Of a stretch of DNA of 64,000 nucleotides, positions 11,356-49,697 are shown in pieces. The stretch is from Diplocarpon mali. Lineage: Eukaryota > Ascomycota > Leotiomycetes > Helotiales > Drepanopezizaceae. The stretch lies in NCBI GenBank assembly GCA_024741835.1, contig JAENRP010000166.1:32488-96487 (forward strand), read 5' to 3'. Numbering within the stretch: position 1 is the first letter of the stretch; each line of letters begins with the position of its first letter. The notes under the pieces were generated by a model, which saw only the letters and a list, made by a program, of their open reading frames with translations, made no database searches and was not told where the DNA came from. A program made the position numbers and the translations under genes.

Positions 11356-14300
11356 ATGGCTTCCGATTCCGATTGAAATACTAAGCTTAAAGACCTCTAA
11401 CTCTTTTAAAAGAACTGGTAATAATAGTTCGACGATTTAAAGCTTTACTTTAAAAGCAAAGGTATTAAAATGGCGATTTAAAAGACACTTATTAAATACG
11501 TAAGAATAGCCCCTTATACTCCCTCTACTAATTTATCTACTTCCACTTTAATAGCTAATACAACTGCTAAGGATTTGCCAGATATACTAAATAAGTTTAG
11601 CCTAAGAGCTTTAGTAGATAATAACTAAGAATCCTAAAGGTAGATTTTAAATATGGAAAAGGAGAAGGAGTATAGGCTAGCCTTAGCTAAATATAAGCTT
11701 AAGATCAATAGAGGTTTAAGCGATAAAGATTAAGATTTTATTTAAGTTTATAATAATGCGAAGATAAGATAGGATACTTTAAAGGCAAAATACTCTTAAA
11801 TAACTGCCTTTAATACTTAGCATCTACTATAGTAAATCACTTTATTTTAATATAGAGAAGATAAAGATAGTAAGGATATAGATATAAATATAGACTTTGC
11901 TTAATCTATATTATATAAAGCGAAGAGGAGAGTAAAAGCTGCAGATCCTAAGATAGCTATAACTTTTAGGGAAACTTAGCTTTTTAGTTTCCTACTTAAT
12001 AGCCTCTCTCTTAAGTTCGCTATTATAAAACAATTTCTTCTTATCCAACCTAACCTTAAGATCTATAAGAAGATCGACCTCCTTTGAACTATTAAGTAAG
12101 ACCTTAAAGGATACTCTAAATCGGCAAATGCTATATTATAAGGTAACGATAAGCTTAAAAAGAGGAAGGAGCGCAGGACGAGCCCTTAAGCTCATCGGGG
12201 ATGCTACTTCTATAATAGTGCTTATAATATTACTAATTGTGAAGTTAGAAGGCAACTGATCGATATAGTCGCTAGCTTTAATATTAAGAAGTAATTGAAG
12301 TAAAAGTTAAGAAGCAAATTGCCCTTATCTTACCAAAGGCTGTAACTACTAAGGAAAGGCAAAGGCAAAGGAAAAGGCTATTTAGCCAAAACTTTAGCAA
12401 ATACTTCTAATAATAATAATAGGTCATTTGAATTTGAATCTACTTCTAATAATTTAAATAATAATTATAATAAAGATACTTATATCTTAAAAGCCGATCT
12501 TTATAAGATCCTTGAATCCGATTAGTATAATAATACTAGTTATATAGCATATATAATTGATAAACCCTACCTATTTAAAGGCCTGCTTACTAAAATAAAA
12601 AGGCGCTTTATTAAGGTTAGTAGTAGAAGGTTATATACGGACTCGATAAGTATAGTAGAAATGAATATCGCTAGCATTTCTTTCCTTTTATAAAATATTC
12701 TCTTTATACTTAGCTTAAGTATTAATCTTTTATCTAGCTCTAAGATCTATATAAAGTTAAATTGTATAAGAGTTTTTAATAATCAATTTATATAGTTTAT
12801 AAATAATAACTATAAAGTGATCTTTAAAGCTAAAATCAAAGATAGACTTTATATTATTTTAAAGGTAATATTATAGAAATTGACTCTTAAGCTGGACTTA
12901 TAAGTAGATTCCTTTAAGGAAAGTGCACTCTCTACCCTAATACAATTGAGTAAGGATAGGAAGAATAGATGGACTCTAGAGCTAGGATCGCAAGTGAAAT
13001 TTGTAAAAATAACTCTTAAGCTAAAACTATAAGTAAATTATAAAGTGTTTTTAAAAATGACTCTTAAGCTAGGATTATAAGTGAATTTAATAGAAATAAC
13101 TTTTAAGCTAGGACTGCGAGTAGATTTTACAGATTCGCTAATAATAACTCTTAAGCTAAGATCGCAAGTGAAATTCGCGGAAATAATTCTTAGGCTAGGA
13201 TTGTAAGTGAAATTTGCGAATTTATTAGAAACGACTCTTAAGCTAGGACTACGAGTAGATCTTGCTATTTTTAAGAAATCGACTCTTAAGCTAAGACCGC
13301 GAGTAGATCTTGCGGTTTTATTAAAAACGACTCTTAAGCTAAGCTTACAATTGGAAAATGGCAAAACCTTAAACTGCTATTATTAATCCTTTTTAGCTGC
13401 TAATAATAAAGCATCGATTAATAATAGGCTATTAAAGCTATTAAAAGCTGAAAGCTTATTAAGGTATTAGTTAATATATAGAAGATTTGCGCATTTCAAG
13501 TTAGAGAAATTAAAGGGCTTATATAAGGTCTTAACTTTAAAACGGAAGATTTAAGTACTAAAGGATTGCCTAGTATGCCGAATTTGTAAGCTAATAAAAC
13601 TTTAAAATCAGACGCAAACTAAGCTTAATCTATAGAAAGATTTAATACTAGCACTAATATCTATTAATACTACTAGACTATTTATAACCTTAATTAAAGG
13701 AAATAATTAGTTTTCTTAAATAGTAGATAACTCTATTTAATAGATATAGACTATTTGCGCTAGGATTAAATCTAAACTTATAGAAAAGCTAGAAACTTAG
13801 AAAGTAATAAAGGAACGCTAGACCTAGTTAAAGCTAATAGCTATTAGGTCTAATAACGCATTAGAGATTAAGGCAAAGCTTAATAAATAGGTAAAATAAG
13901 GAGTTTATTATAAACTAACTATAATATATAAAGGTTCTTATTAGAATAGTATCGCTAAGCGAAATATCTAATAAGTAAAGACTGACTATCGCGCTTTATT
14001 ATAAGATGCTAACCTACTATTAGAATTCTAGGACCTTGCGGTTAAAGCAAACGCATACTTGCGAAATAGAATAGGTAATAGACTAATAGTCAATAGGACC
14101 CGAATATCGCTATATAAGGCATATTTCAGATAGAAATTAAGCCTAGACTATATCTGCGTCTTTAAAAGCATTTACTACTTTTATATTAGCCTAAAGTCCT
14201 AGCCTATAGGTATAAAGAGTAAGAAGCTAATAGATTAAGGTAAAGAGTATATATTTGTTAAGTATATTAAATAGATAATAAAATAGTAGATAGTATATAC

Positions 14301-16449
14301 GCTAGATCTAGGGCGAGTAATTATATCTTTAGTAGTTGAGTTTGATAAATCTTAAAATAGGAGGGAGCTATCCTTAAAGCTTTATATACTTAGAGATTCG
14401 CAAGGTATACTACTCGACGGTAATACTATTAAGCCGAACTAATAACCCCTTTCTCTTAGCTTAAGAATATTAAGTGCACCTGCTGATCGACGACCTATTA
14501 GTCGCCTAAAGGCCGAATAGACTATTCCTATTATCTGCGAACTACCTAAAGTATAGAATAACTTTAATATTATTATCCCTTTAATTAAAGTACCTACGGT
14601 AAAGGATATTCTTAAAATAGGTATAAGTAATAATAAGCTTTTACTATTAGAAAGCGGTTTCTTAAATAATAAGCCTATAAAACCTATAGCTGAACCTACG
14701 TCTTTAAAGAGAAATAGAGACCTAGAACTAAAAGATACCTTAGACGAACGCAAGTTTAAGTATATCTAGGCTATAATAGCGCATAGGATTTATAAGCTTA
14801 AACTTTAATAGAGCTTTGATAAAGATAATGCATTCTTAGCCGCTAGGGGGATAATGAAAATCTCTCTTCTAAAGATATATAATAAAGCTATTAAGGATCT
14901 AGAGAATAGAGCAGTATAAAATGAGGTAATTTAAGAGGAGATAAGTTCTTTTATTATAAATAGTATATAGATAGAGGAATTGATACTAAAGGATATGAAC
15001 TTAGTTTTAATAAAGTGGGTCTTTATAATTAAGATATATGCAAATAGGACCTTAGAACGTTATAAGGCAAGGCTTATAGCTAAGGGCTTCTTTTAATAGT
15101 ATAGAGAAGACTACTTTAACACATTTGCGCTAATAGTTCGTATAGATACCCTTTGCATATTTATAGTAATAGTAGCCGCTGAGGACCTTGAATGCAAATA
15201 GTACGATATTAAAAATGCATTTACTAAAGCGATTATAAAGGAATGGATTTTTCTCTTTTAATCTGATGGTATTCCTATACGCGCTGGCTACTCTCTTTAT
15301 ATACTTTGTAGTATCTATAGGCTTAAGCAATTAGCCTATGATTAGAACCTCTTATATAGCTCTACTTTAATAGAAATGGGATTCGTTTAAAGCCTAGCTA
15401 ACCCTTGTTTATTTACTTATATTAAGTGTAGAATTAAGTTACTATTATATATTAATGATATTACTATAGCTATAAAAACAATTACTTAATTAGATTGGTT
15501 CTTTATAACAATTTGGAAACGTTTTAATACTAAGGATTTAAGGGGAATTTATAAGATCCTTAGCATCTGCGTTATAAGGAACTACTCCACTTAAGAACTC
15601 TAATTAGACTAAGAGTAGTATATTAAGAAGATCCTAGACTAAATAAGACTCTTTACTTATATTCTTAACTTTAAGCTAAAGTGTACCCTAATTAAAGGAA
15701 AGTATAATAAGTTAAAGCCTATTAATGAAAATAAGTAGAAAGGAAATCTGAAGAAGTATTAATAGGATATTAAAGCGATTATATATACTATGGTATATAT
15801 AAGACCAGATATTGCCTTTATTATTAAGCAACTTAGTTAGAACTTAAAGGATCTGACAATTTGATATAAGAATATAGTCAAGCGACTTAGAAGGTACCTT
15901 TAATTAATAATCATATAAAAGGTAAGATATAGATTAATAAAATATATAAGTGCAAAGCTTAAGGTATATACTGATTTTAACTAGGCAAATATAAAAGGTC
16001 GGAAAAGTATATCTAAAAGCGTAGTAGTACTATATAGCAGACCTATATTATAAGGAAGTAGGAAGTAGAAATTAATAGCTATTGCAAGTACTAAGGCCGA
16101 ATATATATTAATATTATCAAATTATAAGTAAGGATTATAAATCGCTTAAGTTCTAAAAGATATAGGTTTTACTAAGTATATTAGATAAGATAAGAACTAT
16201 ATTAATCTTTAAATAGATAATATAAAGGCGATTACACTTGCAAAGAATCTATACTTATATAAGCGATTGAAATATATTAATATTACCTACCACTTTATCT
16301 GCGACCTTATTATAAAGAATAAGTTATTAATCACCTATATCCTAACTAATCGAATAGTAGCAGATGGATTTATAAAGCTATTAGAAACAGTTGTAAAGTT
16401 CGAAGCGTTTAAAGATATACTAGGGTTGCAGAAGATAGTAGGGGCTTAG
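11356..16449 (+). pseudogene. gag-pol: Copia A gag-pol polyprotein, RIP-inactivated
   Basis: The start ATG at 11356 (MASDSD) is matched by an ATG at the same place in Copia B, and the frame is the same down to the TAG at 16447-16449: 1,697 codons. Gag lies about 11356-12450; HRGCYFYNSAYNITNCEVRR (near 12195) corresponds to the zinc knuckle. Next is an array of palindrome-encoded repeats (12882-13364), then the pre-integrase and integrase regions (about 13440-14400). RT follows, with the catalytic block LLYINDITIAI near 15440, then RNase H (near 16070) and the C-terminal block YHFICDLIIKNKLLITYI at 16285. Dozens of stops sit at Gln/Trp codons. The protein would have done capsid assembly, cDNA synthesis and integration. 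Confidence 0.93.
12882..13364 (+). repeat. Tandem array of about ten palindromic units in Copia A
   Basis: Units of 39-48 bp begin with (g/a)actcttaagctaggac.gcgagt, a RIP-decayed form of the GACTC...GAGTC palindrome. They start near 12882, 12970, 13010, 13058, 13097, 13145, 13184, 13232, 13280 and 13328. In the gag-pol frame each encodes T-L-K-L-G-L-R-V or close variants, followed by a short variable spacer peptide. Copia B has about seven such units at 44744-45076 reading TPGPGPRV in the best copy. The array separates Gag from the integrase part. Confidence 0.85.
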
Positions 16450-16462
16450 TAGACTTAAGGAC

Positions 16463-16613
16463 GACTCCTAGGCCCGCCTTATAAGTTAGGTCATATAGTC
16501 TTATAAAGGAAAGTTTTTAAATCAACTCTTAGGCCTAGACCGCGAGTTAAGTCACGTAGTCTTATAAAGGAATGCTTTTAGGAAATTTGACTCCTAGTCC
16601 TACCCTATGAGTA
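16463..16613 (+). repeat. Three palindromic units in the Copia A 3' untranslated region
   Basis: Copies at 16463-16487, 16524-16548 and 16589-16613 (best: aactcttaggcctagaccgcgagtt). The first two share flanking sequence (gtcttataaaggaa), so they are tandem duplicates of a unit of about 61-65 bp. Copia B has two copies here (41538-41562, 41603-41628). Confidence 0.75.
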
Positions 16614-16750
16614 GGGTTGGTGATTTTAATAGAGGTTGCTATTAATTGATTATTTTTAATTTAAAAAGATATTTAAAAGTTGGATTAGCGCAAAAGGATA
16701 GTTATTATTTTCCCGACTATAGGTTAATTAGAGTAAGGTCTAAGTAAGGG

Positions 16751-16945
16751 TATTAAGATAGGTGATATAGCTATCACTTTAATATATTATTATATAACCC
16801 TACTGCTTAATCAATAGGATATTAATATATATATAGCTATAAGGAAGAAAGGGGTAACCTTCCTACCCTAACTCTTACTAATATATCGACCATCGACCTC
16901 TAGAAGCCTCCTTTACCTACTGCGCCGACTCACTTAAGCTCAATA
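16751..16945 (+). repeat. Copia A 3' LTR
   Basis: 195 bp, colinear with the 5' LTR; the differences I see are transitions of the RIP type with the 3' copy more AT-rich. It is preceded by a purine-rich stretch ending aagtaaggg (16743-16750), the polypurine tract, and followed by the duplication TTTTC. Confidence 0.93.
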
Positions 16946-17161: not shown

Positions 17162-17460
17162 GCAAGGCTAAGGAAGTGGTATCTGTGGAATCTCCCGCCT
17201 CCCTTTCCTCTATTACCGACAATTCCCCTAAGGATGATGACGAAGATAATGATAATGCTATAACACAAGTTTCCCTTCCCGTCGATCAAAGTCGTTATAC
17301 TATACTAGCATTAGCAAGAAGCATTAAGACTCCTGCCATACTAAGACCTGTCTCATCGGACACTAATAGCAATGCTATAAGAAGAAGTGGTCGTTTAGCA
17401 AAGAGAGTATTATTTAGTAATAGTTCTTCCTATCCTTTAAAGAGAACTAAGGAAAACTAA
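17162..17460 (+). pseudogene. C-terminal fragment of aORF2 (uninterrupted tail)
   Basis: An open stretch of about 95 codons matches the end of aORF2 at 49310-49601 (SVESPAS, SSDTNSNAI, LKRTKEN before the stop). It has an acidic Asp/Asn run (DDDEDNDN) and a basic RRSGRLAKR motif that resembles a nuclear-localisation or AT-hook-like tail. Unlike the 49-kb copy it has no RIP stops (gtggaatctccc here, gtagaatctccc there). It lacks a start codon of its own that I would trust and is best read as a truncated fragment, not a gene. Confidence 0.7.
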
Positions 17461-17536
17461 TACCTAGGTTGGTTCTATTTTTAATTGTTTTTGCGATTCT
17501 ATAGTTTGTTTATTTGTATTGCTGGCTTCGTTTTCT

Positions 17537-17561
17537 AACTCCTAGGCCCGGCCTATAGGTG
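17537..17561. repeat. Palindromic element copy in the D/F fragment
   Basis: Sequence aactcctaggcccggcctataggtg, 3' of the aORF2 stop. Its counterpart is at 49673-49697 in the D/F element. Confidence 0.8.
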
Positions 17562-17574
17562 AAAGCGTATATAT

Positions 17575-17607
17575 NNNNNNNNNNNNNNNNNNNNNNNNNN
17601 NNNNNNN
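17575..17607. other. Assembly gap (33 N)
   Basis: The gap is followed by a run of A and then T-rich sequence. The same position in the D/F element (49714-49775) is also a gap, so the locus is hard to read or assemble. Confidence 0.99.
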
Positions 17608-17803
17608 AAAAAAAAAAAAAAACTCTTCTTTTTTTTCTTTTTACCTTTAATAAGGATATAGCCCTAGTTTAGGCCTTTTAATATATTAGTTTTCTTATAC
17701 TTAGGGTTTTGCTAATAATTGATATACTATTGCCTTAACCTATATTGTTTTATATTCTTTGCTAATAATAGTAAAGGCCACTACTTTTATTATTTAGGAT
17801 ATA

Positions 17804-18048
17804 TATAAAGACTTAAGATAGATAGGTCTTATAATATATATTATATAATCGGCGTAGGACGGTAGAGGATAAAAGGGCCATCCTTTATATATAGAGACAG
17901 CGCGCATCGCTATAAGTATTGAATATACCTTATACTTAGGACTTATTCCTAACATCTTGTCTAAGAGAGCCCGCTTGTAGTGCTTCCTCCTCTTGTTTTT
18001 AGGTCTTTCCTTAGGCCTATTCTTGTGTTGTCTCCCCTCTGTTTTATA
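17804..18048 (+). repeat. D-family LTR (245 bp) of the D/F fragment
   Basis: It runs from TATAAAGAC to CTGTTTTATA and aligns with the LTRs at 19102-19346 (complement), 28427-28671, 49959-50203 and 58986-59232 (complement). The consensus start is TGTGGAGACCTGAGATGG. The body carries atatatagagacagcgcg, a TATA-like stretch. Confidence 0.92.
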
Positions 18049-19101
18049 ATAAAGTAAGGAGCACTAAGGGAACTAAAGAGGGGAAAGTGGCTAGTAATAG
18101 CCTTAAATGCGGCCATTATCGTTTTATATTAACCATCTGGATTAATAGAATCTATAAGGGGCAAAGGGGAAGCTTTAATATTATAAGATTAGTCGCTAAG
18201 AGGAGTACTTTGAAATTCAAAAGGGCTTAACAAATGTTCAGAATCCGAATCAATCTTAGAATAACTAGGATAGGTTTAAAAAGATTCAGATAAGAGGTTA
18301 ATAAAAAGTTTAAAATTATTATTATTTTTAGTATTTTTAAGCATTAATATTAAAAAAGTAAGTAGTAGTCTTAAGTTATTTAAAGATGTCTTTTTATCCT
18401 CCTACTTATAAGCTAAGACTAAGAGTAGAATTCCAGATTCTATTAAAAGTTTAATCTACGTTTGCTAAAAGATTTTAAGTAGATATTAAATAGCTAATAA
18501 GAGCGTTGCGACTAATCGCAATAAGATAAGGTTTACGTAATTAAGGACTAATTTCTAAGATAAGGTTTATATATAAGATTCTTCCTAGCCTTTAGGCCAA
18601 TTCCTATTAGTCCTTAGAATAAAGGGGTCTTTAAAGACGATTCTAAGGCAAATTTTAAAGTTCTATCGTCCTAAGGCAGCTGAATTATTAGATTCGGATT
18701 TCTAAGGATTCTAAAGAGATACTTCCAATTAGAGTTTACGCTTAATATTACTTAAGTACTCGAAACTACTACTATTTAAGATTGCTATTATAAGGTTCGC
18801 TAAACTTTTCATACTAGGAAGCCGAAAATTCCGAAAATCTCGAAGTTAAGGAAAAAAATAGGGGTTTTTAAAGCAGAGCCGAAAAGGGAAAATCTAAGGT
18901 TATTAATAGTTGCTAAACGAAAATAGATAGTTCAAAGTAACTAAGCGATTAAGGATAAGGTTTTTAAAATTGATCAAAATGCTATAAGTGTTTTAAAGAT
19001 ATATTTTTCAAAAGGCCGATCTCTTATCTATAAACCAAGAGATTAATAAGGTTATATAAAGATGGAAATCTTAAGAAATCGGTCCCTGCGTAGATCACTA
19101 A
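18049..19101 (-). mobile_element. D2: leader and gag N-terminus of a second D element
   Basis: Complementary to 28672-29730 of D/F. Going down from 19101: D leader, gag start (ATA for ATG at 18788-18786; peptide like AISNSSSFEYLS), about 245 codons of gag, then a break at the D/F fragment. It contains the gag palindrome copy at 18403-18428. It shares the LTR 19102-19346 with D1, so the two D copies are in tandem. Confidence 0.85.
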
Positions 19102-19346
19102 TATAAAACAGAGGGAAGATAATATAAGAATAGGCCTAAGGGAAGACCTAAAAACAAAAGGAGGAAGTACTATAAGCAGGCTCTCTTAGATAAGATATTA
19201 GAAATAAGTCCTAAGTATAGGGTATATTTAGTACTATAGTGCTACGCGCTTTCTCTATATATAGAAGATGGCCCTTTTATCCTCCCACCGTCCTGCGCCG
19301 ATTATGTGATATATATCACAAGACCTATCCATCTCAGGTCTCTACA
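19102..19346 (-). repeat. D-family LTR shared by D1 (3' LTR) and D2 (5' LTR)
   Basis: 245 bp. The right side continues into D1 3' untranslated sequence (...cctgcactac|TGTAGAGACC on the minus strand). The left side continues into the D leader (TTTTATA|ttagtgatctacgc). One LTR therefore serves two elements of the same strand, the product expected from recombination between LTRs of tandem copies or insertion into an LTR. Confidence 0.88.
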
Positions 19347-19778
19347 GTAGTGCAGGAAGAGGTTTATTTATAAAGATAGGAATTGCATTAGCGCGCAAAG
19401 GAAAAGTGGGTATAAAGAGGCCGAAAGTGGGAATAAAAGTGGGGTATAACGCATACAAGGACCTACAATTGGTAAATGACAATTATCAAAGGTAAGGATG
19501 ATATTTCAAAGGTAAGCGTTAGAAAGTTGCATATAAAGGAAATAATTAGGAGATAGATTATATAAAGAATAAAGTAGAGTAAAGAATATATATAGAATAG
19601 AACCTTAAATAGAGAATAAAGAGGTGCTGGTATATAAGAAGTAGATAATCTTAAAAAAATTCAACTTTGATTTGTAAGTTCTTTAAATGGTTCTCTTTAA
19701 AAGTAATAGGCTAGATTCCCTAGATCGCTCGACTTAATTATCGGTTTTATTATTACCTTAGAGTCTTCTTTTCTTATA
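19347..19778 (-). other. D1 3' untranslated region
   Basis: Complementary to 39532-39968. Pyrimidine-rich on the minus strand, ending with ctttataaataaacctcttcctgcactac directly before the 3' LTR. No ORF. The same TATAAATA sequence precedes aORF2 in the D/F element. Confidence 0.75.
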
Positions 19779-22700
19779 TTAGTTCTTACTTTTCGGCGAT
19801 TTTTTAGCTTTAGGGACCTCTTTTAAAGGATCTTCTATTAGTACCTTTAGATTTAATAGCTGAAGTTTATCCGAATTATCTTATAGGCTAAAGCTGGCCG
19901 AGTCTAACCTTACTCGCAGGCCGGGCTTGCGAGTCAGTCTTGGCATTTTTAAGCTTAAGGGTAAAAATAGGGAATTAGTTCCTAAATCAGGGTCTAATAC
20001 TATACTAGTATCTTAGTTTATCTCTTTTTCGAACTTTCTTATAATAATGCCTTTATTAATTAGTGCATTAGGCTCTTAGATAGCATTTAATTTATTGTAT
20101 TATCCTTAAGACTTAAGTCTATAAAGAAGCGACTTAGTATTTATAATATTCGTTTAGGCCTTAATAAGGGCGTTAAAGAGTTTTTAATTATATTTTATAA
20201 AGTGGATTTTCAATTTATCCTTATTAAGAAGGAACAACTACTATACTTCGATTATAATAGAGGGATCTGTTTAAGAGCGCCGATTAATAATAGCTTTAAA
20301 GAGGCTGCTATAATTCTTAAGATAAAAAGCTGCCTTAAAAGGTATAGTAGTTTTACTTATATTAATCTATTAAGGTATTAGAGGTTACTTTAGAGTAAAG
20401 ATTGAAAAGATAAGATCAGAGATTCGAGTCTTATTTTCTAAGGTATTCTTATTGCAAATAGTTGTATAGTTATTATAAAAGGCTATAAAACTACTAGTTT
20501 TATAAAGTTTATCTAAGTATATTTTAAAAAGGTGCCTTTGTTTTATTATTATTATAATAGGGTTACTATTATTAATAATAGGCCGCAAGATCTCTTTTTA
20601 CTTTATTTTTATAATTATATAAGCTAGTTGAGATTTTGAACCAAGTGCTTAAGAAGTCTATCGACTTATCTTCTTTATAAATAGAGTGAGTTTTATATCT
20701 AATTAAGAGCCGATCTACCTATTAAGGCTTTTAAAAGCTGGCCCTTATCTAATTAGTAGGATCTAATAATCTAAAACTTGCTTTCTAATAAAATTAACTT
20801 ATAGGCTTAAGATCGTGAGTAATAATCGGATTTTCTTTATTAGCAGTACTTGCATCTCTCTTTATCGAAATGACTTAATTGTAAAGACTAAGACTAATTA
20901 ATTAGAGAGGTTTAAGATAGGCTATAAGCTAATAGGCTCTTTTACTTTTTGCTATTATAGCTAAGAGGTAGAGTTTATAATATATCCAAAGGACTTATTA
21001 AGTAAGATTGAATATTATATTATAAAGAAAATAAGAAGGTATAAAGGTTATATTATCCATAAGGTAGAAGTGATAAAGGTATATCTCTACTTCTTATTTT
21101 ATAATAGAAAGGAATGTACTTATAAAAGCACTATTATTAGTAGTAAAATTGTTAGTTAAGAAGCGGCATCCGAAGGGTTTAGGCATTATAATTGACCCTT
21201 CTTCCTCTATTTCCTTTTACTATTTATTACTTAATAATATTGAAAAGAAAGAATTATTCTATTCAATCGGCTTTAACGCCTTTAAGGCTTTAGGATTAGC
21301 CTTAAATTTTATAATACTTAAAGATGCCTCTATTATCAATAGGTTGGATTTGCATATCCTTAAAGAGATAAAGAATTAATTATTAAAGTAGATTAGAAAA
21401 AGATCAATATCTTCTACTATATAAAGAAGTTCAAAGTATTTAATAGTTTTATTAGTATTAAATCCTTTATTATTAAGACTATAGTAAACCGAAAGAGAGC
21501 GAATATAAAGGTCGCAAAGTCTTTTCCCTTCGATTCCTATACTAGGAAGATACTATTGAAAGCGAGTTTTTATTATAAAGGATACTTGAATATTATATTA
21601 TTCTTTAAGCTTAAGGTTGAGAATGACCGATTAAGGCATATTACTACAATTATAAATATCCTAATTAATAGATTCCTTTTTGCGTTCTCTTTCTTATAAG
21701 ATAAAATAGTCTCGCTTAGCATTTAAGAGACTAGGTTCTTAACTTCTATAATTATTAAAGAATTGAATAATATTTATAAGGGCGAACTTATTTAGGATAA
21801 ACTATTGAATCTATTTAATAGCTCTCTTAATTATCTTTAAAGTAATAGGAATAGGGTCTTCCCTTATATTATCATTTCTAAAACGGTTGTATATAAATAT
21901 AAAGAAGTTAAGAACTAGCTCCTTTAAGTTATTAGGAAAGGAGTCTAAGTGAGCGCGCAATCCTTTAGTTTTAAATTGTAAATTAGTTAAAGTGGCTATT
22001 AAACGATCTATCCTTTTTAAAGGTTGAGCTAAAATTAGTCGTTTAATTAAAGGAGAGTCCTTTAAAGATTCCGAAAATTCTAAAGAGGCTGCGCTAAGCG
22101 TTTAAGTAGTTTATTTGATAGCGGTTTTTAAAATCATTTTAATAAGAGGTAGGTTAGGTCTAGTTTTAAAATTCTTACTTCTAACTCTTAGTCTAGGACC
22201 GCAAGTCAAATCATATGATTTAGCACTTATTATATCTTCTAATTAAGAAGCGGATTTTAAGGCAGGCTTAATTATAAATAACTAATTCCCTTCTTTATTA
22301 TTAAAGAAATCTCGCTTAAACTTTAGTATAGGAGTCTAGTTCTTTCTTAAAATAAGCAAACTATAAGTAAAAGTGCAAAGCCTTAGCATATTAATAATAG
22401 TACTATTAAGTAGGGTAATATCTATAGCCTAATTTGATCTTTTTATAGCTTTATTAGCTACTATAAGTATTATATTAAATAAGCTTATAAATCTGCGACT
22501 GCGAATTCGATTGCCTTAGAATTTTACTACTCCTTCTTAAATAATAAAGAAATTGAGAATTTAAATAGCTTTAGTAGTAGGAGTATTTTCCTTAAGAATT
22601 TTTAATAATACTTGCCTTCTATTATTAGAATTAATATTTATTAAAAAGCGCAAACGAAATAGGAGTCCTCTTTTATTAGTGGCTAAATTATCTAATTATC

Positions 22701-39399: not shown

Positions 39400-39531
39400 A
39401 GGTTGGACTCAGCTGGCTTAAGCCTACGAGATGGTTCAGATGAACCTCGGTCACTAAATCTAAGAGTACTAATAGAAGATCCTTTAAGAGAGGTCCCTAA
39501 AGCTGAAAACTCGCTAAGAAGTGAGAACTAA

Positions 39532-40141
39532 CGCAAGAGAAGAAGACTCTAAAGTGACGATAGAACCGACAATTGAGTCAAGCAATCTAGAGAATCTAGC
39601 CTATTACCTCTAGAGAATACTATTTAGAGAACTTACGAATTCGAGTTGAATCTTTTTTTTTTAGGATTATCTACTTCCTATATACCAGCACCTTATTGTT
39701 CTCTATTCATTATTAAATTCTATATATATTCTTTATTCTACTTCGTTCTTTATATAATCCATCCTTTGATTATTTCCTTTATATACAACTTTCTAACGCT
39801 CACCTTTGAAATATTATCCTTACCTTTAAAGAATTATCATTTACTAATTGTAGGTCCTTATATGCGTCATACCCTACTTTTGTTCCTACTTCCAAGCTTA
39901 TTATGCCCACTTTTCCTTTGTGCACTAGTGCGATTCCAAACTCTATAAATAAGCCTTTCCCCGCACTACGATTTTACTTTTTTTTACTTTTTCTATAACC
40001 CTACTAGACCTATAATACCAGTACTACTACTATTATCCTTCTATTATCAATCTTTTCTAGTATAAGCCTCTTATATCGATTAATCTTTCCTAATAATCAT
40101 CCACTCGTTTAGCTCTACGTTTCTTAATAAGCTAATTCACT
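39532..40141 (+). promoter_or_regulatory. CT-rich, TATA-containing region between aORF1 and aORF2
   Basis: The + strand is strongly pyrimidine-rich from 39650. CTATAAATAAG lies at 39942-39952, about 190 bp before the aORF2 start, followed by ccccgcactac (39958-39968). In D1 the LTR follows exactly after the same gcactac, while here gattttacttt continues. It is therefore the 3' untranslated end of D and at the same time a plausible promoter of aORF2. Uninterrupted codons at 39646-39948 look like chance reading of CT-rich DNA. Confidence 0.5.
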
Positions 40142-41205
40142 ATAGCGCCCTCGAACTCATTTAAGAAAGCCACACCTAAGAAGAGTATAGCAGTTATTGC
40201 CTCAAGCGGCAAATCCCTAAGCACTCCTAATAATGAACTAATATTAGAAGGAGGATTTTCTTAGGACGGAAAAGCTCTAAGATCATTAGAAGATATAATA
40301 ACTACTTATAGAATATTAGGCGAAATAGAATAATAGGTATTCTTAAACTCATCTATTGATATGCTCAATCATAGGATTTCCGCTATAGAAGAAGGATTTC
40401 TAGGGTTCGATAACTTCTTTAATAATAAACTTAAGATTAAAGGTATCGACTGTAAGAAATTTTTACAAAAGTACTAAGGGTATACTAACTCAATGGATTT
40501 GTTTCAAAAGAACTGAGATAAGAAAGATGAATGTATAAAGAGGCTAAGACAATTCACTAAAGGCACCTAGGGCATGCTTTTCCAAAGTTACTTCATAAAT
40601 AATATTACTGCTAATAATGCCTTATAAGGGCTTGGTAAAATCTTTGAAACCTACTAACCTATAGCAAAGGCTATATAAGTGTTAAATCATTTTACAATAT
40701 AAGAAGGTATAAAGAAACTCTAAGGAAATAGCGTAAGAAGTAGAAAGTTCATAGGGTTCTTAAGCACTATTATACACTCTACCATTCAAACTATAAAAGA
40801 TAATCCTTTATAGTATAACAATTTCGCACTTCCCGACCAAACTGTTTTAAACACCCTCGGCCTTTAACAATCATAGTACAGACTACTTATTATAAAAGAA
40901 AAGATGATTTACCTAGCTAAGTATATAATAAACTTCTTCGATAATAAGTCAGAGAGATAGGAATTTATCATATCCGCCGCTCTAAAGCTGCTACCACCCC
41001 TGGCAGAACAGACTAATAAGGAAGATTTGACTCGTAGGCCCGGCCCACGGGTAGGAGTACTACGTAAGGAGGAGGTCCCTGAGCATAAGGTGCCTATAAT
41101 ACCGAGAACACAAATTACTAACCGTTATAACCCTTATTCATTAGACTTAGATGAGTTTAAATCGCCGTCCTTAAAAATGCCCCGAACACCCCAAATACTA
41201 GTAGT
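40142..41205 (+). pseudogene. aORF2, N-terminal part, paralogue of aORF1
   Basis: Start read as ATA (former ATG) at 40142, giving a basic Ser/Thr/Lys-rich N-terminus (APSNSFKKATPKKSIAVIA). The following 250 residues align with aORF1 (see there), including insertion-free spacing of the FDxF...KGI block. The palindrome at 41029 encodes LTRRPGPRV. Copia B interrupts the frame after QILVV at 41205; once Copia B and one GTAGT are removed the frame continues at 47201. Whole ORF: 1,154 codons. Function unknown. Confidence 0.72.
41029..41053. repeat. Palindromic element in aORF2
   Basis: Encodes LTRRPGPRV. Its flanks correspond roughly to the 37104 copy in aORF1. Confidence 0.83.
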
Positions 41206-41400
41206 TATTGAGCTTAAGTGAGTCGGCGCAGTAGGTATAAGAAACTTCTAAAGGTCGATAGTCGATATATTAGTAAGAGTTAGGGAAGGAAGGTTACCCC
41301 TTTCTTTCCTATAGCTATATACGTATCAATATCCTACTGACTAAGTAGTAGGGTCATATGATAATACATTGGAGTGATAGCTATATTACTTATCTTAACA
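41206..41400 (-). repeat. Copia B 3' LTR
   Basis: On the minus strand it keeps the intact start TGTTAAG (41400 downwards). The polypurine tract ggtctaagtagggg (complement, 41401-41414) adjoins it. Confidence 0.93.
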
Positions 41401-41537
41401 CCCCTACTTAGACCTTATTCCAATTGACCTGCAGTTAGGAAAATAACAACTATCCTTTTGCGCTAATCCAACTCCTAGGTATCTCTTTAAATTAAAAATA
41501 ATCAATTAATGGCAACCTCTATTGAAATCACCAATCC

Positions 41538-41628
41538 TACTCGCGGGGCGGGACCGGGAGTCAAATTTCCTAAAAGATGTTCCTTTATAAGACCATATGA
41601 CCTGACTCGCGGGGCGGGCCCGGGAGTC
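41538..41628 (-). repeat. Two palindromic units in the Copia B 3' untranslated region
   Basis: Copies at 41538-41562 (actcgcggggcgggaccgg...) and 41603-41628 (gactcgcggggcgggcccgg...), 65 bp apart, GC-rich and well preserved. Copia A has three. Confidence 0.8.
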
Positions 41629-41641
41629 GTCCTTGAGCCTG

Positions 41642-44600
41642 CTAAGCCCCTACTGTCTTTTACAACCCTAGCATATCTTTAAACGCTTCGAACTTTGCAA
41701 CTGTCTCTAGTAGCTTTGTAAATCCATCTGCTACCATTCGATCGGTTAGGATATAGGTGATCGATAACTTGTTCTTCGCAATAAGGTCGCAGATAAAGTG
41801 GTAGGCAATATCGATATATTTCGATCGCTTGTACAAGTGTGGATTCTTTACAAATGCAATCGCCCCTATATTATCTGCTTAGAGATCAATACAGTTCCTA
41901 TCTTGTCTAATATACTTAGCGAAACCTATATCTTTTAGAACTTAAGCGATCTATAATCCTTGCTTGCAATTTGACGATATCGATATATATTCGGCCTTAG
42001 TGCTTGCAGTAGCTACTGATTTCTGCTTCCTACTTCCCTACGACATAGGTCTACTATATAGTACTACTACGCTTCCAGATATACTTTTCCGACCTTTCAT
42101 ATTTGCCCAGTCGGAATCGGTATATACCTTAAGCTTTGCGCTTATATGTTTCATTAGTCTGTATCTCACCTTTTATATAATTATTAATCGAAGGTACCTT
42201 CTAAGTCGCTTGACTGCATTCTTATATCGAATCGTCGGATCCTTTAGGTTCTGACTAAGTTGCCTAGTAATAAAGGCGATATCTGGTCTTATATATACTA
42301 TAGCATATATAATCGCTCTAATGTCCTATTAGTACTTCTTTAGATCTCCTTTCTACTTATTTTCATTAGTAGGCTCTAACTTATTATACTTTCCTTCAAT
42401 TGGAGTATACTTTAGCTTAAAGTTAGGAGTATAAGTAGAGAGTCCTATTCGGTCTAGGATCTTCTCAATATACTGCTCTTGATCTAACTAGAGTTCTTAA
42501 GTGGAGCGGTTCCTTATGACGCAGATGCTAAGGATCTTATAAATTCCCCTTAGATCCTTAGTATTAAAACGTTTCCGAATTGTTATAAAGAACTAATCCA
42601 ATTGAGTAGTTGTTTTCGCAGCTATAGCAATATCGTCAATATATAGTAGCAATTTGATTCTACGCTTAGTATAAGTAAATAGACAAGGGTCAGCTAGGCT
42701 TTAAACGAATCCCATTTCTACTAGAGTAGAACTGCATAAGAGGTTCCAATTATAGGCTGATTATTTGAGCCTATAGATACTGCGGAGTATATAAAGAGAG
42801 TGGCTAGCGCGTATAAGAATACCGTTAGGTCAGGAGAGAAAAATCCGTTCCTTTATAATCGCTTTAGTAAATGCATTTTTAATATCGTACTATCTGCATT
42901 TAAGGTCCTTAGCAGCTACTATCGCTATAAATATGCGAAGGGTATTTATGCGAACTGTTAGCGCAAACGTGTCGAAGTAGTCTTCTCTATACTATTAAGA
43001 GAAGCCCTTAGCTATAAGCCTTGCCTTATAATACTCTAGGGTTCTATCTGCATATATCTTAATTATAAAGACCTACTTCGTTAATACTAGGTTTACATCC
43101 TTTGGCATTAGTTCCTCTATCTATATACCATTTGTAGTAAGAGAGCTTATCTCCTCTTAGATTGCCTTACTCTATACTACTTCATTCTCTAGATTGTTAA
43201 TAGCTTTATTATACATCTTTAGAAGAGAGATTTTCATTATCTTCCTAGCGGCTAGGAACGCATTATCTTTATCGAAGCTCTATTAAAGTTCGAGCTCGTA
43301 GATCCTATGCGCTATTATAGCCCGGATACGCTTAGACTCGCGTTCGTCTAAGGTATCTTCCGGTTCTAGGTCTCTATTTCTCTTTAAGGACATAGGTTCG
43401 GCTATAGGTTCTATAGGCTTATTATTTAGGGAACCGCTTTCTGGTGGTAGAGGCTTATTGTTACTTGTACCTATTTTAAGAACATCCTTTACTGTAAGTG
43501 CTTTAACTAAAGGGATGACGATATCGAAGTTATTCTATACTTTAGGCAGTTCGCGGACAATAGGAATAGTCTGTTCGGCCTTTAGGCGACTAGCAGGTCG
43601 TCGATCAGCGGGTACGCTTAATATACCTAAGCTTAAAGAGAGGGGTTATTAGTTCGGCTTGATAGTATCACCGTCGAGTGGTATACCTTGCGAATCTCTA
43701 GGTATACAGAGCTTTAAGGATAGCTCCCCCTTATTTCAAGATTTATTAAACTCAACTACTAAGGATGTGATTACTTACCCTAAGTCTAGCGTATATACTA
43801 TCTATTGCTTTATTATCTATTTAATATACCTAATAAATATATACTCTCTACCTCGGTCTATTAGCTTCTTACTCTTTATACCCGCAGGCCAGGACTTTAG
43901 GCTAATATAAGAGTAGCAGACGCTTTTAAAGACGCGAATATGGTCCAGGCTTAGTTTCTATCTGAAATATGCCTTATATAGCGATATTCGGGTGCCATTG
44001 ACTATTGGCCCACTACCTATTCTATTTCGTAGGTATGCGTCTGCCTTAACCGCAAGGTCCTAGAATTCTAGTAGTAAGTTAGCATCTTGTAGTAGAGCGC
44101 GATAGTCAGTCTCTGCTTATTAGATACTTCGCTTAGCGATGCTATTCTAATAGGAACCTTTGTATATTATAGTTGGTTTATAACAAACTCCTTATTTTAC
44201 CCATTCGTTAAGCTTTGCCTTAATCTCTAATGCGTTATTAGACCTAATAGCTATTAGCTTTAACTAGGTTCGGCGTTCCTTTATCACTTTCCAAGTTTCC
44301 AGCTTTTCTATAAGCTTAGATTTAGTCCTAGCGCAAATGGTCTATATCTACTAAGTGGAGTTATCTACTATTTAAGAAAACTAATTATTTCCTTTGATTA
44401 AGGTTGTGAATAGTCTAGTAGTGTCGATAGATATTAGCGCTAGTATCGAATCTTTCTATAGACTAAGCTTAGTTTGCGTCCGATTTCGAAGTTTTATTAG
44501 CTTGCAAATTCGGCATATCAGGCGATCCTTCGGTACTTAGATCTTCCGTTTTAGGGTCGAGACCTTATGCAGGCCCTTTAATTTCTCTAGTCTTAGATAC

Positions 44601-46594
44601 GCGAATCTTCTATATATTAGCTGATACTTTGATAGGCTTTCGGCTTTTGATAGCTTTAGTAGCCTATCGTCAGTCGATACTTTATCATCGGCGGCTGGAA
44701 AGGACTAGTGATAGCAGTTCAAGGTTTTGCCGTTTTCCAATTGAGAGCCCGGCTTAGGAGTCGTTTTTAGTGAAACCGCGAGATCCACTCGCAGTCCTAG
44801 CTTAAGAGTCGATTTCCCGGAATTTGCAGAATCCACTCGCGGTCCCGGCCCAGGAGTCATTTCTGCCAAATTCACTTATGATCCCAGCTTAGGAGTCATC
44901 TTCGAGGACACTTTGCAATCTACCTATAGTCCCAGCTTAGGAGTCATTTTCGCGAATTTTACTTGCGATCCCAGCTTAAGAGTCTATCTATTCTCCCTAT
45001 CCTCGCTCAATTGTATTAGGGCAGAGAGTGCACTTTCCTTAAAGGAACCTACTTATAGGTCCGGCCTAGGAGTCAATTTTTATAATATCACCTTTAAGAT
45101 AATGTAAAGTCTATCTTTGATTTTAGCCTTAAAGATCACTTTATAGTTATTATTTATAAACTATATAAATTGATTATTAAAAACTCTTATACAATTCAAC
45201 TTTGTATAGATCTTGCAGCTAGATAAGAGATTAATACTTAAGCTAAGCATAAGGAGAATATTTTACAAAAGGAAAGAAACGCTAGCGATATTCATCTCTA
45301 CTATACCTATTAAGTCCGCATATAACCTTCTACTACCAACCTTAATAGAGCGCCTTTTTATTTTAGTAAGCGGGCCTTTAAATAGGTGGAGTTTATTAAT
45401 CATATATGCTATACAACTAGTATCACTATACCAATCGGATTTAAGGATCTTATAAAGATCGGCTTTTAAGACGTAGGCATCTTTATTATAATTATCGTTT
45501 GAATCATTAGAAGTGGATTTAGGTTCAGATAACCTACTATTGTTATTAGAGGTATCTGCTAAAGTTCTAGCTAAATAGCCTTTTCCTTTGCCTTTCCTTA
45601 ATAGTTGCGGCCTTCGGCAGGATAAGGGCAGTTTGCTTCTTAACTTCTGCTTCGATTGCTTCTTAATATTAAAGCTAGCGATTATATCGATCAGTTGCCT
45701 TCTAACTTCACAATTAGTAATATTATAAGCACTATTATAGAAGTAGCATTCCCAATAAGCTCAAGGGCTCGTCCCGCGCTCCTTCCTCTTCTCGGGCTTG
45801 TCTTTACCCTATAATATGGCATTTGCCGATTCAAAGTGTCCTTCAAGGTCTTGCTCAATAGTTCGAAGGAGGTCGATCTTCTTATAGATCTTAAGGTTGG
45901 GTTAAATAAGAAGAGATTGTTTCGCAATAGCGAACTTAAAAGGGAGGCCATTAAGTAGGAAACTAAAAAGCTGAGTTTCCCTAAAAGTCATAGCTATCCT
46001 AGGATCTGCAGCTCTTACTCTCCTCCTCGCTTTATATAGTATAGACTAGGTAGAGTCTATATTTATATCTATATCCTTGCTATCTTTGTCTTTTCTATAC
46101 TAAAATGAAGTGATCTGCTATAGCAGATGCTAGGTATTAAGGGCAGTTATCTAAGAGTATTTTGCCTTTAAAGTATCCCATCTTATCTTCGCGTTATTAT
46201 GAATTCGAACAAAATCTCAGTCTTTATCGCTTAAACCTCTATTGATCTTAAGCTTGCATTTAGCTAAGGCCAGCCTATACTCCTTTTCCTTTTCTATATT
46301 CAAAATCTGCCTTTGGGATTCTCAATTATTATCTACTAAAGCTCTTAGGCTAAGCTTATTTAGTATATCTAGTAAATCCTTAGCAGTTGTATTAGCTATT
46401 AAAGTGGAAGTAGACAAATCAGTAGAGGGAGTATAGGAGGCTATTCTCGCGTATTTAACAAGTGTCTTTTAAATCGCTATTTCAATGCCTTTGCTCTTAA
46501 AGTAAAGCTCTAAATCGTCGAACCATCGTTGCCAGTTCTTTCGAGAGAGTTGGAGGTCTCTAGGCCTAGTGTTTCGATCGGAATCGGAAGCCAT
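41642..46594 (-). pseudogene. gag-pol: Copia B gag-pol polyprotein, RIP-inactivated
   Basis: ATG at 46594-46592 (MASDSD, as in Copia A) to TAG at 41644-41642, 1,650 codons in one frame length. Gag: about 46594-45500, with a zinc-knuckle region near 45730. Palindrome array 45076-44744. Integrase about 44600-43700. RT: catalytic block (LLYIDDI-like) near 42640. RNase H near 42000-42100 and the C-terminal block at 41760-41820. It is 47 codons shorter than Copia A, in agreement with fewer array units. Stops are fewer than in Copia A, and many Gln codons survive. Confidence 0.92.
44744..45076 (-). repeat. Palindromic-unit array in Copia B gag-pol
   Basis: About seven units: six close together (44744-44990) and one about 60 bp apart (45052-45076). 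The best copy (cactcgcggtcccggcccagg, 44834-44857) reads T-P-G-P-G-P-R-V in the gag-pol frame. Others give TPKLGL-V, TLKLGSQV and TPRPDL-V. Short variable spacers separate them. Confidence 0.85.
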
Positions 46595-46750
46595 TGCCGT
46601 TTCGAATAGAATTGCGTTTAAAATCAAATAAATTAAATGGTTAAGGGCACTCCTCCTATCGAAAAGTCGAAATGATTAAATAGCGGGTATTATAGAAGTA
46701 TTAAATAGGGAGGAAGTCCTTTTATCGAAAAGGGTTTTTAGGTTATAACG

Positions 46751-46881
46751 CAGGGAATCACACCTCCTACGAAACACAGTAAAGCAAGGAATTATACCTC
46801 TTGCAGTACCAAAGGGGTTATAGAGCAAGGAATCACACCTCTTGCAATACAGGTTGGCTGAATAGGGAATTATACCTCCTA
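46751..46881 (-). repeat. Four direct repeats in the Copia B leader
   Basis: ggaatcacacctcctac-type motif at about 46751, 46784, 46824 and 46863, between gag start and LTR. Counterpart of 11072-11202 in Copia A; copy number and spacing are conserved. Confidence 0.65.
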
Positions 46882-47000
46882 TTCGCCGATTGCTCGCCTC
46901 TTATTACAAGTCTCATTCAACTTCCTACTAATAGTTACAGCGCAAGTGCTTTCTAAGGGAAGTCAATAATCTATTATCAGTCTATCTAGGGCTTATAACC

Positions 47001-47195
47001 TATTAAGCTTAAGTAAGTCGGCGCAGTAGGTATAGGAAACTTCTAAAGGTCGATAGTCGATATATTAGTAAGAGTTAGGAAAGGAAGGTTACCCCTTTCT
47101 TTCCTACAACTATATACATATCAATATCCTACTGACTAAGCAGTAGGGTCATATGATAATACATTGGAGTGATAGCTATATCACCCATCTTAATA
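47001..47195 (-). repeat. Copia B 5' LTR
   Basis: 195 bp. On the minus strand it is followed by ggttataagccctagatag (from 47000 down), the probable primer-binding region, also seen in Copia A. Confidence 0.93.
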
Positions 47196-47209
47196 GTAGT
47201 AAAGAAATT

Positions 47210-47234
47210 GACTTGCGAGCCCGGCCCGCAGGTC
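47210..47234. repeat. Palindromic element in aORF2, next to the Copia B junction
   Basis: Encodes LTCEPGPQV; Copia B inserted only 10 bp upstream. Confidence 0.83.
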
Positions 47235-48439
47235 AATATACGTAATAATATAAACTCAGATAATAAAATATCAAATAAAGAAAACAACACTATCCCTAAT
47301 ATGCTAAAGATTTTTAATAATAATAAGAAAGATATTACTAACATTATGCAATCCTTCCCTAAGGACCTATAAAAATTCGTCCTAAAATTCTATAAGTTAA
47401 TAATAAAACGTTTAAAGAAAGAAGGTTAAGAAGAAGTTTTGTTAGCATAAGAGGGAATGGCAAGGGCTATTAAATAGATTATAAAGTTATAGCAAGACGA
47501 ATTCTCTATAGACAATATTATATAGTTCTTTATCGACTATAAGAAATTGAATAGTAACTACTATATTCTTAAGGAAAAGTCAAAAGATAGCACAACTATC
47601 GTCTCTATAGAATGCTATCAAGTTCCCCTTAATATTAAGATAATACTATAGTATAGCAATAGGTTCAAGATTGTAGTAATACTAGAAATGAAAATAAGAC
47701 TCTCCAAATTTATAGTAGGAATATTCGAGGACTTTAATTTTAATAAATTCTACGCCCTTTATAAACGATAATACGCGTAGTACTATAGGCTGGCAACAAT
47801 AGGCCTTAATAATAAAGATGTATCGTCCAATGTCTACAAATTTTGCACTGCCCTTAACCTAAAGCTGTTTTTATTACACCTAAGGAATTATGCAATTGTG
47901 GCCACCGGCAATAGAATAGCGAGCTAGGTTAAGAAAGATATATCATTAGGTTTCGCTAAGTTTAAGGTAAAGCCTAAAGCTTTGAAATTATTCTATAATA
48001 TCGCCTAGACTCCTGCCTAGTACAATGCTATACTAGCCAGCGATAACCTAATATCACTCTATAGCAAAGGGTTTTTAAATATGCCCAAATTGTTCAGCTG
48101 CGCTTTCCTAAGTGCTATACATATATATAGTTATAGTTCTCGCATAAAGACTTCATTTTTAATATTAGCATAAGAAGAACTGGAAATATACAGACATCAT
48201 TTTCGAGTATCTAATAAGAAACTAGCACCTCTATCCGCATTTCTCTATAATATAACTCACAATCTAATATAACAAACGCTAAGAATGCACTATAGATTAT
48301 ATCTAAGTGCTCTACTAACTCATCATAATTCTTTACATAAGTTAGTAATATACCTTAAGCCGGCACAATTTATAAGGATTGACTACTATACGAAAGTAGT
48401 TTCTACTAGAATTGACGCTAATATAAGATTCGTCAGATT

Positions 48440-48464
48440 GACTCCTAGGCCCGGCTCGCGGGTC
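48440..48464. repeat. Palindromic element in aORF2
   Basis: Encodes LTPRPGSRV and corresponds in position to the 38490 copy of aORF1 (followed by IDYYMI, against LDYQIL). Confidence 0.85.
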
Positions 48465-49261
48465 ACTATACCTAATAATAGGACCATCGATTACTATATG
48501 ATTCCAGCAGCCAAGCAGTCTACTAGACAATTTACAGTATAAGAAAAGTCGCATAAGTTATTAATCCTTATACTACCTAGGCTTAAAAATGCTTAATAGG
48601 TCTTAATAAACCTAGTACAAAGCGCTAGTTAATGAAAAGAACTAAGTACTAAATAAAGAACGCCCCTAGAGGAATATGTTTCCAATAAGACCGTCCTATT
48701 TTCGGTATTTATAAGATAAGGCATATTCGTTAACCTTAAGTCTAAACAGGAACCTAGCAAAGGCGGTTTTTTAATAATTAGTAATAACTATACTAAGGTG
48801 GTTGGAAATAGAGCACTTAAGAATGGCACCGATTTAAAGGATTTTATTATTAACTCTATTAATATAAAGCGACCCTAACCTATAAGATAGAATATCGCAG
48901 GTAAATCGTCTGCTAAGTTTCGTACAACCCTTAGTATAATAAAAGGTGGCCCCCTATCGAAGGCTCTCATAAGAAAGAGACCCTAGAGCGACCTATTAAT
49001 AGTAATAACTATAAAGGATTTATTTGCAAAAGATATAACTTAATTAATAGCATATTTAAAGAAGTATGAATAAGAACTTTTTAAAGATTTTATTAATACT
49101 TAAAAGCTAGTTCAATAGCTAGAGCTGCAACTATACAAAAATAAGTCGTAGACTAAGATAAGAGGCTCTAATAACAATATTAAGGCTAATAATATAATTA
49201 ACGAGACGATTCTATTTAAGAAGTATAGCACTAAGAAACCCTATATAAAGACACCTAATAT

Positions 49262-49286
49262 AACTCCTAGGCCTAGCCCGCAACTT
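49262..49286. repeat. Palindromic element in aORF2, C-terminal
   Basis: Encodes TPRPSPQL. Confidence 0.72.
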
Positions 49287-49672
49287 GATCTAGCAAAGGG
49301 CAAGGCCAAGGAAGTAATATCCGTAGAATCTCCCGCCTCCTCCTCCTCTATCACTAACAATTCCCCTAAGGATAATAACGATAATAATAATAATAACGCC
49401 ACTATATAAGTCTCTCTCCCTATTAGTAAAAGCCGCTAAAGTATACTAGCATCTGCCTAAACCACCGAAGCTCCTACTATACCGAGACCTATCTCATCAG
49501 ATACTAATAGCAATGCTATAAGAAAAAGTAGTCGTTCGGCAAAGAGAGTATTATCTAATAATAGGTCTCCCCGCCCTCTAAAGAGAACCAAGGAAAATTG
49601 ACATCTAGGTTAGTACTATTTTTAATTGTTTTTACGATTCTATAGCTTATTTGTTTTGCTAGTTTCATTTTC

Positions 49673-49697
49673 TGACTCCTAGGCCCGGCCTATAGGT
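49673..49697. repeat. Palindromic element in D/F 3' untranslated region
   Basis: gactcctaggcccggcctat form, 72 bp after the aORF2 stop. Counterpart at 17537-17561. Confidence 0.83.

Follow-up and report, generated by a model that had tools for sequence, protein, structure and literature searches.

A GC-rich imperfect palindrome recurs in unrelated Ty1/copia and Ty3/gypsy retrotransposons of the fungus Diplocarpon mali, and its independent gain in several of these families is well supported. The repeat unit is 25 bp long, or about 35 bp with its A/T-patterned edges. We studied it in a 64,000-bp stretch of the genome, here called the window (contig JAENRP010000166.1, our C166, positions 32488-96487 of an assembly of 49.4 Mb in 676 contigs). 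A first-pass annotation of the window had reported more than 30 copies in elements of both superfamilies. It had also taken it for a selfish or domesticated palindrome comparable to the protein-coding palindromic elements of Rickettsia. The count was borne out by 46 sites at a matrix score of >=18. The sharing between unrelated Ty1/copia and Ty3/gypsy elements was confirmed as well, and the homologous linkers of relatives have no counterpart of the palindrome.

The palindrome and its host families

The window is AT-rich and filled with repeats, and its dinucleotide counts carry the mark of repeat-induced point mutation (RIP): CA, TG and TA stand at 0.45, 0.41 and 1.31 of expectation. Under the standard code, an open reading frame (ORF) listing of the window contained none of 250 aa and a single stop-to-stop frame of 165 aa. 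Translation with table 6 opens frames throughout, which merely equals ignoring TAA and TAG. The exact 9-mer GACTCGCGG occurs just twice in the window, a search that was too strict because most copies are altered by RIP-like C>T/G>A change. Copies were detected with a symmetric 25-bp position matrix seeded from those of the first-pass annotation. It returned 50 sites at a score of >=9 and 46 at >=18; matches scoring 9-18 were excluded from the main set. As a control for the score, ten first-order Markov sequences gave maxima of 7.4-20.4, one of which exceeded 18.

All 46 copies lie within Copia or Gypsy D elements, at 0.7-1.9 sites per kb in the Copia A, Copia B and D segments, and the matrix found none in the remaining 21,556 bp of equally AT-rich window sequence. 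The elements named by the first-pass annotation were thus the right ones, but its end coordinate was too early, since the copies at 57276 and 58285 lie beyond it. One of the 46, at 43879, is doubtful: its counterpart at 14188 scores 15, and it falls where an SH3-like domain matched. Pairing past the 25 bp is no higher than base preference gives; the flanks are A/T-patterned and not clearly paired. Rfam returned no match at the gathering threshold.

How widespread is the palindrome in the genome? With up to three mismatches, we counted 518 plus-strand and 526 minus-strand matches; the reversed pattern gave 7 and 2. Many of the listed loci appear on both strands, and adding the two counts therefore overstates the number of distinct loci. 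The exact un-mutated degenerate form had 78 matches, against 0 for the reversed pattern. On either strand, the three-mismatch pattern recovers 6 of the 46 window copies, and by rough extrapolation from that recovery the genome might hold a few thousand copies. The genome appears divided into two compartments, gene-rich stretches with a GC content of 0.43-0.59 and AT-rich, RIP-marked repeat stretches. Among twenty chosen 10-kb stretches, the 16 GC-rich ones (GC 0.43-0.59) held 0 matches; three of the four AT-rich ones held 37, and the fourth none. For strain DC1_JKI of D. coronariae, the genome paper gives 20.74% LTR/Copia and 5.67% Ty3 in the portion cited here (PMC11527701).

We fetched 40 loci, 20 from among the three-mismatch matches listed and 20 from among the un-mutated matches listed, and grouped their flanking sequence by single-linkage clustering, leaving out the duplicates L002 and L006. 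By flank clustering, Pfam and tblastn, 40 of 40 fell in clusters tied to long terminal repeat (LTR) retrotransposons. There are five host families, with gag/pol domains by Pfam: Copia1 (protein P0027), Copia2 (P0015), the chromodomain family Gypsy E (P0028-P0031), Gypsy D, and a family resembling D. This last one is represented by loci such as L029, and its left part matches the D terminal repeat region at 72% identity. A cluster once thought separate proved to be the 3' end of Copia2, since directly ahead of it lies a 71% alignment to P0015 residues 1284-1491. Locus L028 has no palindrome. COX1 was not found in the assembly by the search made, which gave no mitochondrial sequence to compare with. 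At the Copia2 3' end, the palindrome adjoins a minisatellite with a unit like ATTAAGGGGTGATTTTTTTTTGCACCTC (L064, about 395-520; L050, L053), and a similar ATTAAGGGGTGATTT stands before the Copia2 palindrome between integrase and reverse transcriptase (RT).

Linkers, reading frame and unit number

Annotated D. coronariae proteins carry the motif as TPGPGPRV or TREPGPGV: P0015, P0027, P0028, P0029 and P0031. In these five scanned proteins, every unit lies outside Pfam matches (E<=0.001). P0015 has units at 354 and 370, between gag (65-220) and a protease-like domain (392-473), and at 849, 864 and 880, between SH3 (758-828) and RT (991-1240). The P0027 array at 501-621, in which motif search counts six units and the eye about eight, is placed between a protease-like domain (381-455) and an SH3 domain (886-962). 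Gypsy E has a unit at residue 52; units 602 and 617 of P0029 lie between the protease and RT homologies, and units 379 and 394 of P0031 between RNase H (ending at 321) and the integrase zinc domain (starting at 475). P0028 lacks the two-unit protease/RT linker of P0029 though the flanks agree, probably a predicted intron and an annotation artefact. By eye, differences between L056 and P0029 look to be of the C>T/G>A type; together with P0015 they indicate that the assembly most likely comes from D. coronariae, the apple-blotch fungus. We also compared a 60-residue array query with 5.8 billion proteins. At E<=10, six of 620 candidates, query included, were returned and all were from D. coronariae; that search covered proteins of 0.55-1.75 times the query length and arrays only, leaving room for single copies elsewhere.

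Relatives of the host elements were found without the palindrome. Copia2 homologues lack the peptide in the linkers covered: Rhynchosporium P0016, P0019 and P0020 (48-50% identity) and P0017 and P0018 (41-46%), of which P0018 covers the first linker only and P0019 and P0020 are fragmentary elsewhere. The gag/protease linker measures 47 residues in P0015, 21 in P0016 and P0020 and 25 in P0018. Outside the six D. coronariae proteins, none of 25 returned proteins has the E/G-P-G-P core; P0025, among the 31 database proteins, matches T..P.P.V four times by chance, with a different sort of sequence (TVIPPPLV). Gypsy F, a relative of Gypsy E that is 52-61% identical to P0031, has no palindrome and leaves a 33-column gap over the two protease/RT units of P0029. 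At the position of the Gypsy D copy 34406, the linkers of the D relatives P0001-P0006 (25-48% identity) are unrelated, differ in length and contain no palindrome.

The arms differ slightly, ACTC(C)(C/T)GG against ACTCGCGG, and orientation can often be told. By eye, the forward copies are those of the Copia2 integrase/RT linker (P..R), the Copia2 3' end, both Copia1 sites, the listed Gypsy E units and D sites 29352, 48440, 49262 and 49674. The reverse ones are those of the Copia2 gag/protease linker (R..G) and D sites 30361, 32277 and 37104; seven D sites are near-symmetric. One codon phase yields T-x-x-P-x-P-x-V in both orientations. In D read-through frames, where TGA occurs only at the ends, this main phase is used by 10 of the 12 sites that could be resolved. 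The exceptions are 29352 and 34406, just as the first-pass annotation had found, and the peptides it had read at 38490, 41029, 48440 and 44834 are likewise as claimed. The 6 sites in annotated proteins all share the main phase, giving 16 of 18 (binomial p 1.7e-6 if sites are independent), a count that excludes the tied site 35841 and untranslated sites and includes some sites that are duplicates of each other. Past the Copia1 pol gene, units are spaced 61, 65 and 66 bp apart (61 and 65 in Copia A), which are not multiples of 3. With both orientations in use, one main frame and 3' untranslated copies, we conclude that the palindrome is not simply an inherited protein motif.

Between some sites, similarity extends past the core. 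D sites 34406 and 37104, which are in different phases, have 16 bp of flank in common, and so do 47210 and 48440; each pair is identical at 15 of 20 flank positions, the top of 650 comparisons with a mean of 7.5. The Copia2 3' end and integrase/RT sites have about 13 bp of common flank. Hence, what was copied between places seems to have been somewhat longer than the palindrome itself.

Unit number varies among copies of a family. At the Copia2 integrase/RT site, 31 of 39 copies have two units, 7 have three, 1 has one and none has zero; the 39 are the query and 38 of 39 other scored rows, the half-length row C232 being left out. All 45 spacings there are multiples of 3 (45, 48, 54, 66 or 72 bp), as is every unit spacing measured within an ORF, and L052, outside this set, has four units. 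The Copia2 gag/protease site has two units in L008, L047 and L035 and one in L040. Copia1 arrays number 7, 8, 10 and 10 units, and past pol Copia B lacks the unit that Copia A has at 16524, two units against three. Family spans were searched in the best 40 of 177-355 candidates; a rare empty copy could escape such a search, and a span length could conceal gaps that offset each other. In all of the best 40 rows, one of them the query itself, the D span measured 2446-2451 bp against a 2451-bp query. For the 3' end of Copia2 and the N-terminal site of Gypsy E, the best 40 rows each contained no 25-bp loss, and some were 15-48 bp longer (lengths only). With sites apparently fixed within families and only unit number varying, the gains seem older than the amplification of the families.

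Elements of the window

Locus L023 holds counterparts of 38490, 39375, 48440, 49262 and 49674 in a single stretch, and D terminal repeats stand at both ends; on these grounds we take D2 to be a single element, about 21.8 kb long with Copia B counted in. The first-pass annotation had assigned 41029 and 47210-49697 to a separate element, and for the same reasons we place them in D2. The check for long terminal direct repeats covered only the window's Copia1 and D elements. Evidence for the D2 pol gene comes from RNase H and H2C2 domains and RT homology to P0001. At about 15.8 kb, not counting the nested Copia B, Gypsy D is very long; it has 14 palindromes, and its frame 36076-39576, downstream of pol, runs for 1166 codons without TGA and has no Pfam match. 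The window also holds degraded palindrome-free elements of at least three more Gypsy families and one distant Copia (5483-10217, 854-3490, 50206-54216, 59574-61073). N bases or assembly gaps directly adjoin palindromes near T-runs (window 17575-17607 and 49714-49775; L033, L041, L042).

Table 1. Host elements, palindrome copies and palindrome-free control segments, in window coordinates.
Feature	Position	Strand	Remarks
Copia A (family Copia1)	10757..16945	+	LTRs near 10757-10951 and 16751-16945; RVT_2 about 14995-15652; tblastn with P0027
Copia A tandem array, 10 units (score >=14)	12882..13353	+	Matrix; spacing 90/39/48 bp; linker from protease-like domain to integrase; counterpart P0027 residues 501-621
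Three palindromes past Copia A pol (16463, 16524, 16589)	16463..16613	+	Probably 3' untranslated region
Gypsy D copies/fragments (D1)	17246..28400	mostly -	Matrix, repeats; palindromes 17537, 18403, 19911, 22183, 23446, 24881, 26848, 27010; a decayed one near 20797
Gypsy D2	28424..50206	+	Copia B (41194-47196) inside; LTR copies 28427-28674 and 49959-50206
Palindrome	29352..29376	+	Phase 1, frame exception
Palindrome	30361..30385	+	Reverse orientation (R..G), phase 2
Palindrome	32277..32301	+	N-terminal to pol homology; reverse orientation, phase 2
Palindrome	32439..32463	+	N-terminal to pol homology; phase 2
Palindrome	34406..34430	+	RNase H/integrase linker; phase 1, frame exception
Palindrome	35841..35865	+	Directly after end of pol homology; frame tied
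Palindrome	37104..37128	+	Read-through frame 36076-39576; reverse orientation; right flank common with 34406
Palindrome (TRGPGPRV)	38490..38514	+	Read-through frame 36076-39576
Palindrome	39375..39399	+	Read-through frame 36076-39576
Palindrome (TRRPGPRV)	41029..41053	+	Left of Copia B insertion
Copia B (family Copia1)	41194..47196	-	Domains, repeats, tblastn; about 6 kb
Two palindromes past Copia B pol homology (41538, 41604)	41538..41628	-	
Copia B tandem array, 7 units	44738..45074	-	Matrix
Palindrome of D2	47210..47234	+	Right of Copia B insertion; right flank common with 48440
Palindrome (TPRPGSRV)	48440..48464	+	
Palindrome	49262..49286	+	Phase 2
Palindrome	49674..49698	+	Near D2 3' LTR, adjoining N gap
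Palindromes 57276 and 58285 of D fragment 56183-59170	57276..58309	-	Counterparts of 30361 and 29352
Palindrome-free control	1..10750		Other Gypsy families, including Gypsy F 5483-10217 (-); 0 matches
Palindrome-free control	50207..56182	-	Includes Gypsy family about 38% identical to Gypsy E
Palindrome-free control	59171..64000	+	Includes distant Copia pol 59574-61073

Explanations and comparable systems

We consider it fairly probable that the palindrome is a short dispersed repeat inside LTR retrotransposons, gained independently by at least four families in two superfamilies, and several times by each. It would have passed as nucleic acid from one element to another among those replicating in one cell. 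Our preferred guess at the route is that reverse transcription moves the palindrome with some flank, by template switching or hairpin-prone copying. We infer such transfer from the copies examined, which occur only in LTR retrotransposons, share flank and lack a target duplication. Purifying selection would leave copies in permissive places, either interdomain linkers in the T-x-x-P-x-P-x-V frame or untranslated 3' ends, and arrays might arise by tandem slippage. The peptide is probably a neutral to mildly useful Pro/Gly spacer. In a more pointed form, which we offer only tentatively, the palindrome could be a selfish protein-coding palindrome of the eukaryotic nucleus, a hyperparasite of 25-50 bp copied between unrelated LTR retrotransposons in reverse transcription and tolerated since, whichever its orientation, the codon phase is the same and the peptide a harmless Pro/Gly linker.

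Several observations weigh against spread of this kind. The reverse-transcription route itself is a guess. No fully empty site was found within any family (D, Copia2 integrase/RT, Copia2 3' end, Gypsy E N-terminal), and no target duplication is convincing: the best z was 3.8 in 700 offset tests over 26 sites, a direct-repeat test that omitted some tandem units of one site. Of the selfish mobile palindrome proposed in the first-pass annotation, independent gain in several families therefore stands, and mobility, which these two results speak against, is at most a possibility; ORFs without the palindrome were found among relatives (Rhynchosporium, Gypsy F, P0001-P0006), and none within families among the rows scored. 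The linkers give a mixed account. Palindrome-free P0017 has the longest gag/protease linker, 72 residues, so linkers vary regardless of the palindrome. The Copia2 integrase/RT linker has 56 residues with its three units, against 58-64 in the palindrome-free Rhynchosporium proteins. As it is no longer with units than without them, the palindrome seems to replace linker, which looks rebuilt and not cleanly interrupted. The RNase H/integrase linker of Gypsy F is unrelated and of similar length, that of Gypsy E being not clearly longer. The frame is partly ascertained, since a T-P-G-P query served to find the annotated proteins; counter to this, the matrix found no further coding unit in the Gypsy E locus L069. 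We assumed that the D plus strand is coding, but locally, stops are fewer in a minus-strand frame at 38490, 47210 and 49262. One of six tested units, from the Copia2 gag/protease linker, folds poorly as RNA, no better than its own shuffles. Finally, 0.4%-19% of the synonymous encodings of the given peptide pair equally well. We do not use palindromicity as an argument because, by this synonymous-codon test, it is only mildly above what the peptide imposes.

Perhaps the palindrome is instead selected as a peptide or an RNA hairpin that serves the elements, through linker flexibility, RNA packaging or control of translation or reverse transcription, and was spread by recombination? Annotated proteins with long open frames do carry units, coding copies do stand in linkers, one D element has 14 sites, and the other five of the six tested units fold at about -13 kcal/mol. 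However, two D sites are in another frame, the Copia2 unit just mentioned folds like shuffles, unit number differs between copies, and related families manage without the palindrome; we think this explanation somewhat unlikely. A mini-transposon or hairpin element acting at the DNA level, either a miniature inverted-repeat transposable element (MITE) or an analogue of mitochondrial GC clusters, might sit in retrotransposons merely since they fill the AT-rich compartment. The palindromic core, the use of both orientations, the occupation of coding and untranslated sites and a flank preference for a pyrimidine before the core and a purine after it (28 of 28 rows) would suit such an element. Yet the target-site duplication of a MITE is missing, the other 21.6 kb of AT-rich window sequence, L028 and the 16 GC-rich stretches have 0 matches, and every one of the fetched loci lies in one of the five LTR families. 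We hold an element of this type to be unlikely. Vertical inheritance with convergent Pro/Gly linkers, their palindromic look coming from codon use, would fit the linker location, the tandem in-frame units and a peptide-constrained sequence that is partly self-complementary. It is contradicted by the same DNA being untranslated, in another frame and in reverse complement, and relatives without the palindrome also stand against it; we regard it as highly improbable.

By analogy, the palindrome appears to work like a Rickettsia-type protein-coding palindromic element, as whose member we do not file it. The same palindrome stands in-frame in Copia1, Copia2, Gypsy D and Gypsy E, it is placed in linkers, and homologues without it exist. 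Here the hosts are nuclear fungal LTR retrotransposons and not bacterial genes, and the unit has 8 codons, is tandemly amplified and is readable in both orientations in one frame; the Rickettsia elements, treated by Ogata et al. in 2002, reportedly span tens of codons. The likeness lies in a short palindrome that is in-frame in unrelated coding sequences, in unstructured segments, as the relevant passages of PMC2996958 describe. The same paper treats the palindromic amphipathic repeat coding elements (PARCELs), tandem coding repeats with dyad symmetry that in some taxa are linked to mobile elements (Roske et al. 2010, PMC2996958). PARCELs are there a 25-residue amphipathic repeat, often of membrane-targeted proteins, whereas ours is an 8-residue Pro/Gly linker core in gag-pol with spacings of 39-72 bp (13-24 codons) and one 90-bp step in the Copia1 arrays.

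Double-hairpin elements, GC clusters and Pst1 palindromes of fungal mitochondria are likewise dispersed hairpin or palindromic repeats thought to be mobile, according to the sections of PMC7218506 on them; the location here is nuclear retrotransposons, all 40 fetched loci having LTR elements. The Conserved Hairpin Site of fungal GalEa Copia elements is also a palindromic hairpin in fungal Copia. As portrayed in the part of PMC5445492 that concerns it, it differs in being a single 9-bp sequence with a partner right after the 5' LTR, where it replaces the primer binding site, and is neither dispersed nor coding. In line with the first-pass annotation, which knew of no earlier description in fungal transposons, the open-access literature searched described no coding palindromes dispersed in retrotransposons, whether fungal or not, subscription papers being mostly outside that scope. 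In the D. coronariae genome paper (PMC11527701), the main text is free of the string 'palindrom'.

For intracellular bacteria, in-frame palindromes have been discussed as seeds of new peptides; the comparable sequence described here sits within the genes by which fungal retrotransposons of two superfamilies replicate. The palindrome would be a case of sequence exchange between Copia and Gypsy elements, and the origin and spread of coding palindromes become testable by strain comparison.

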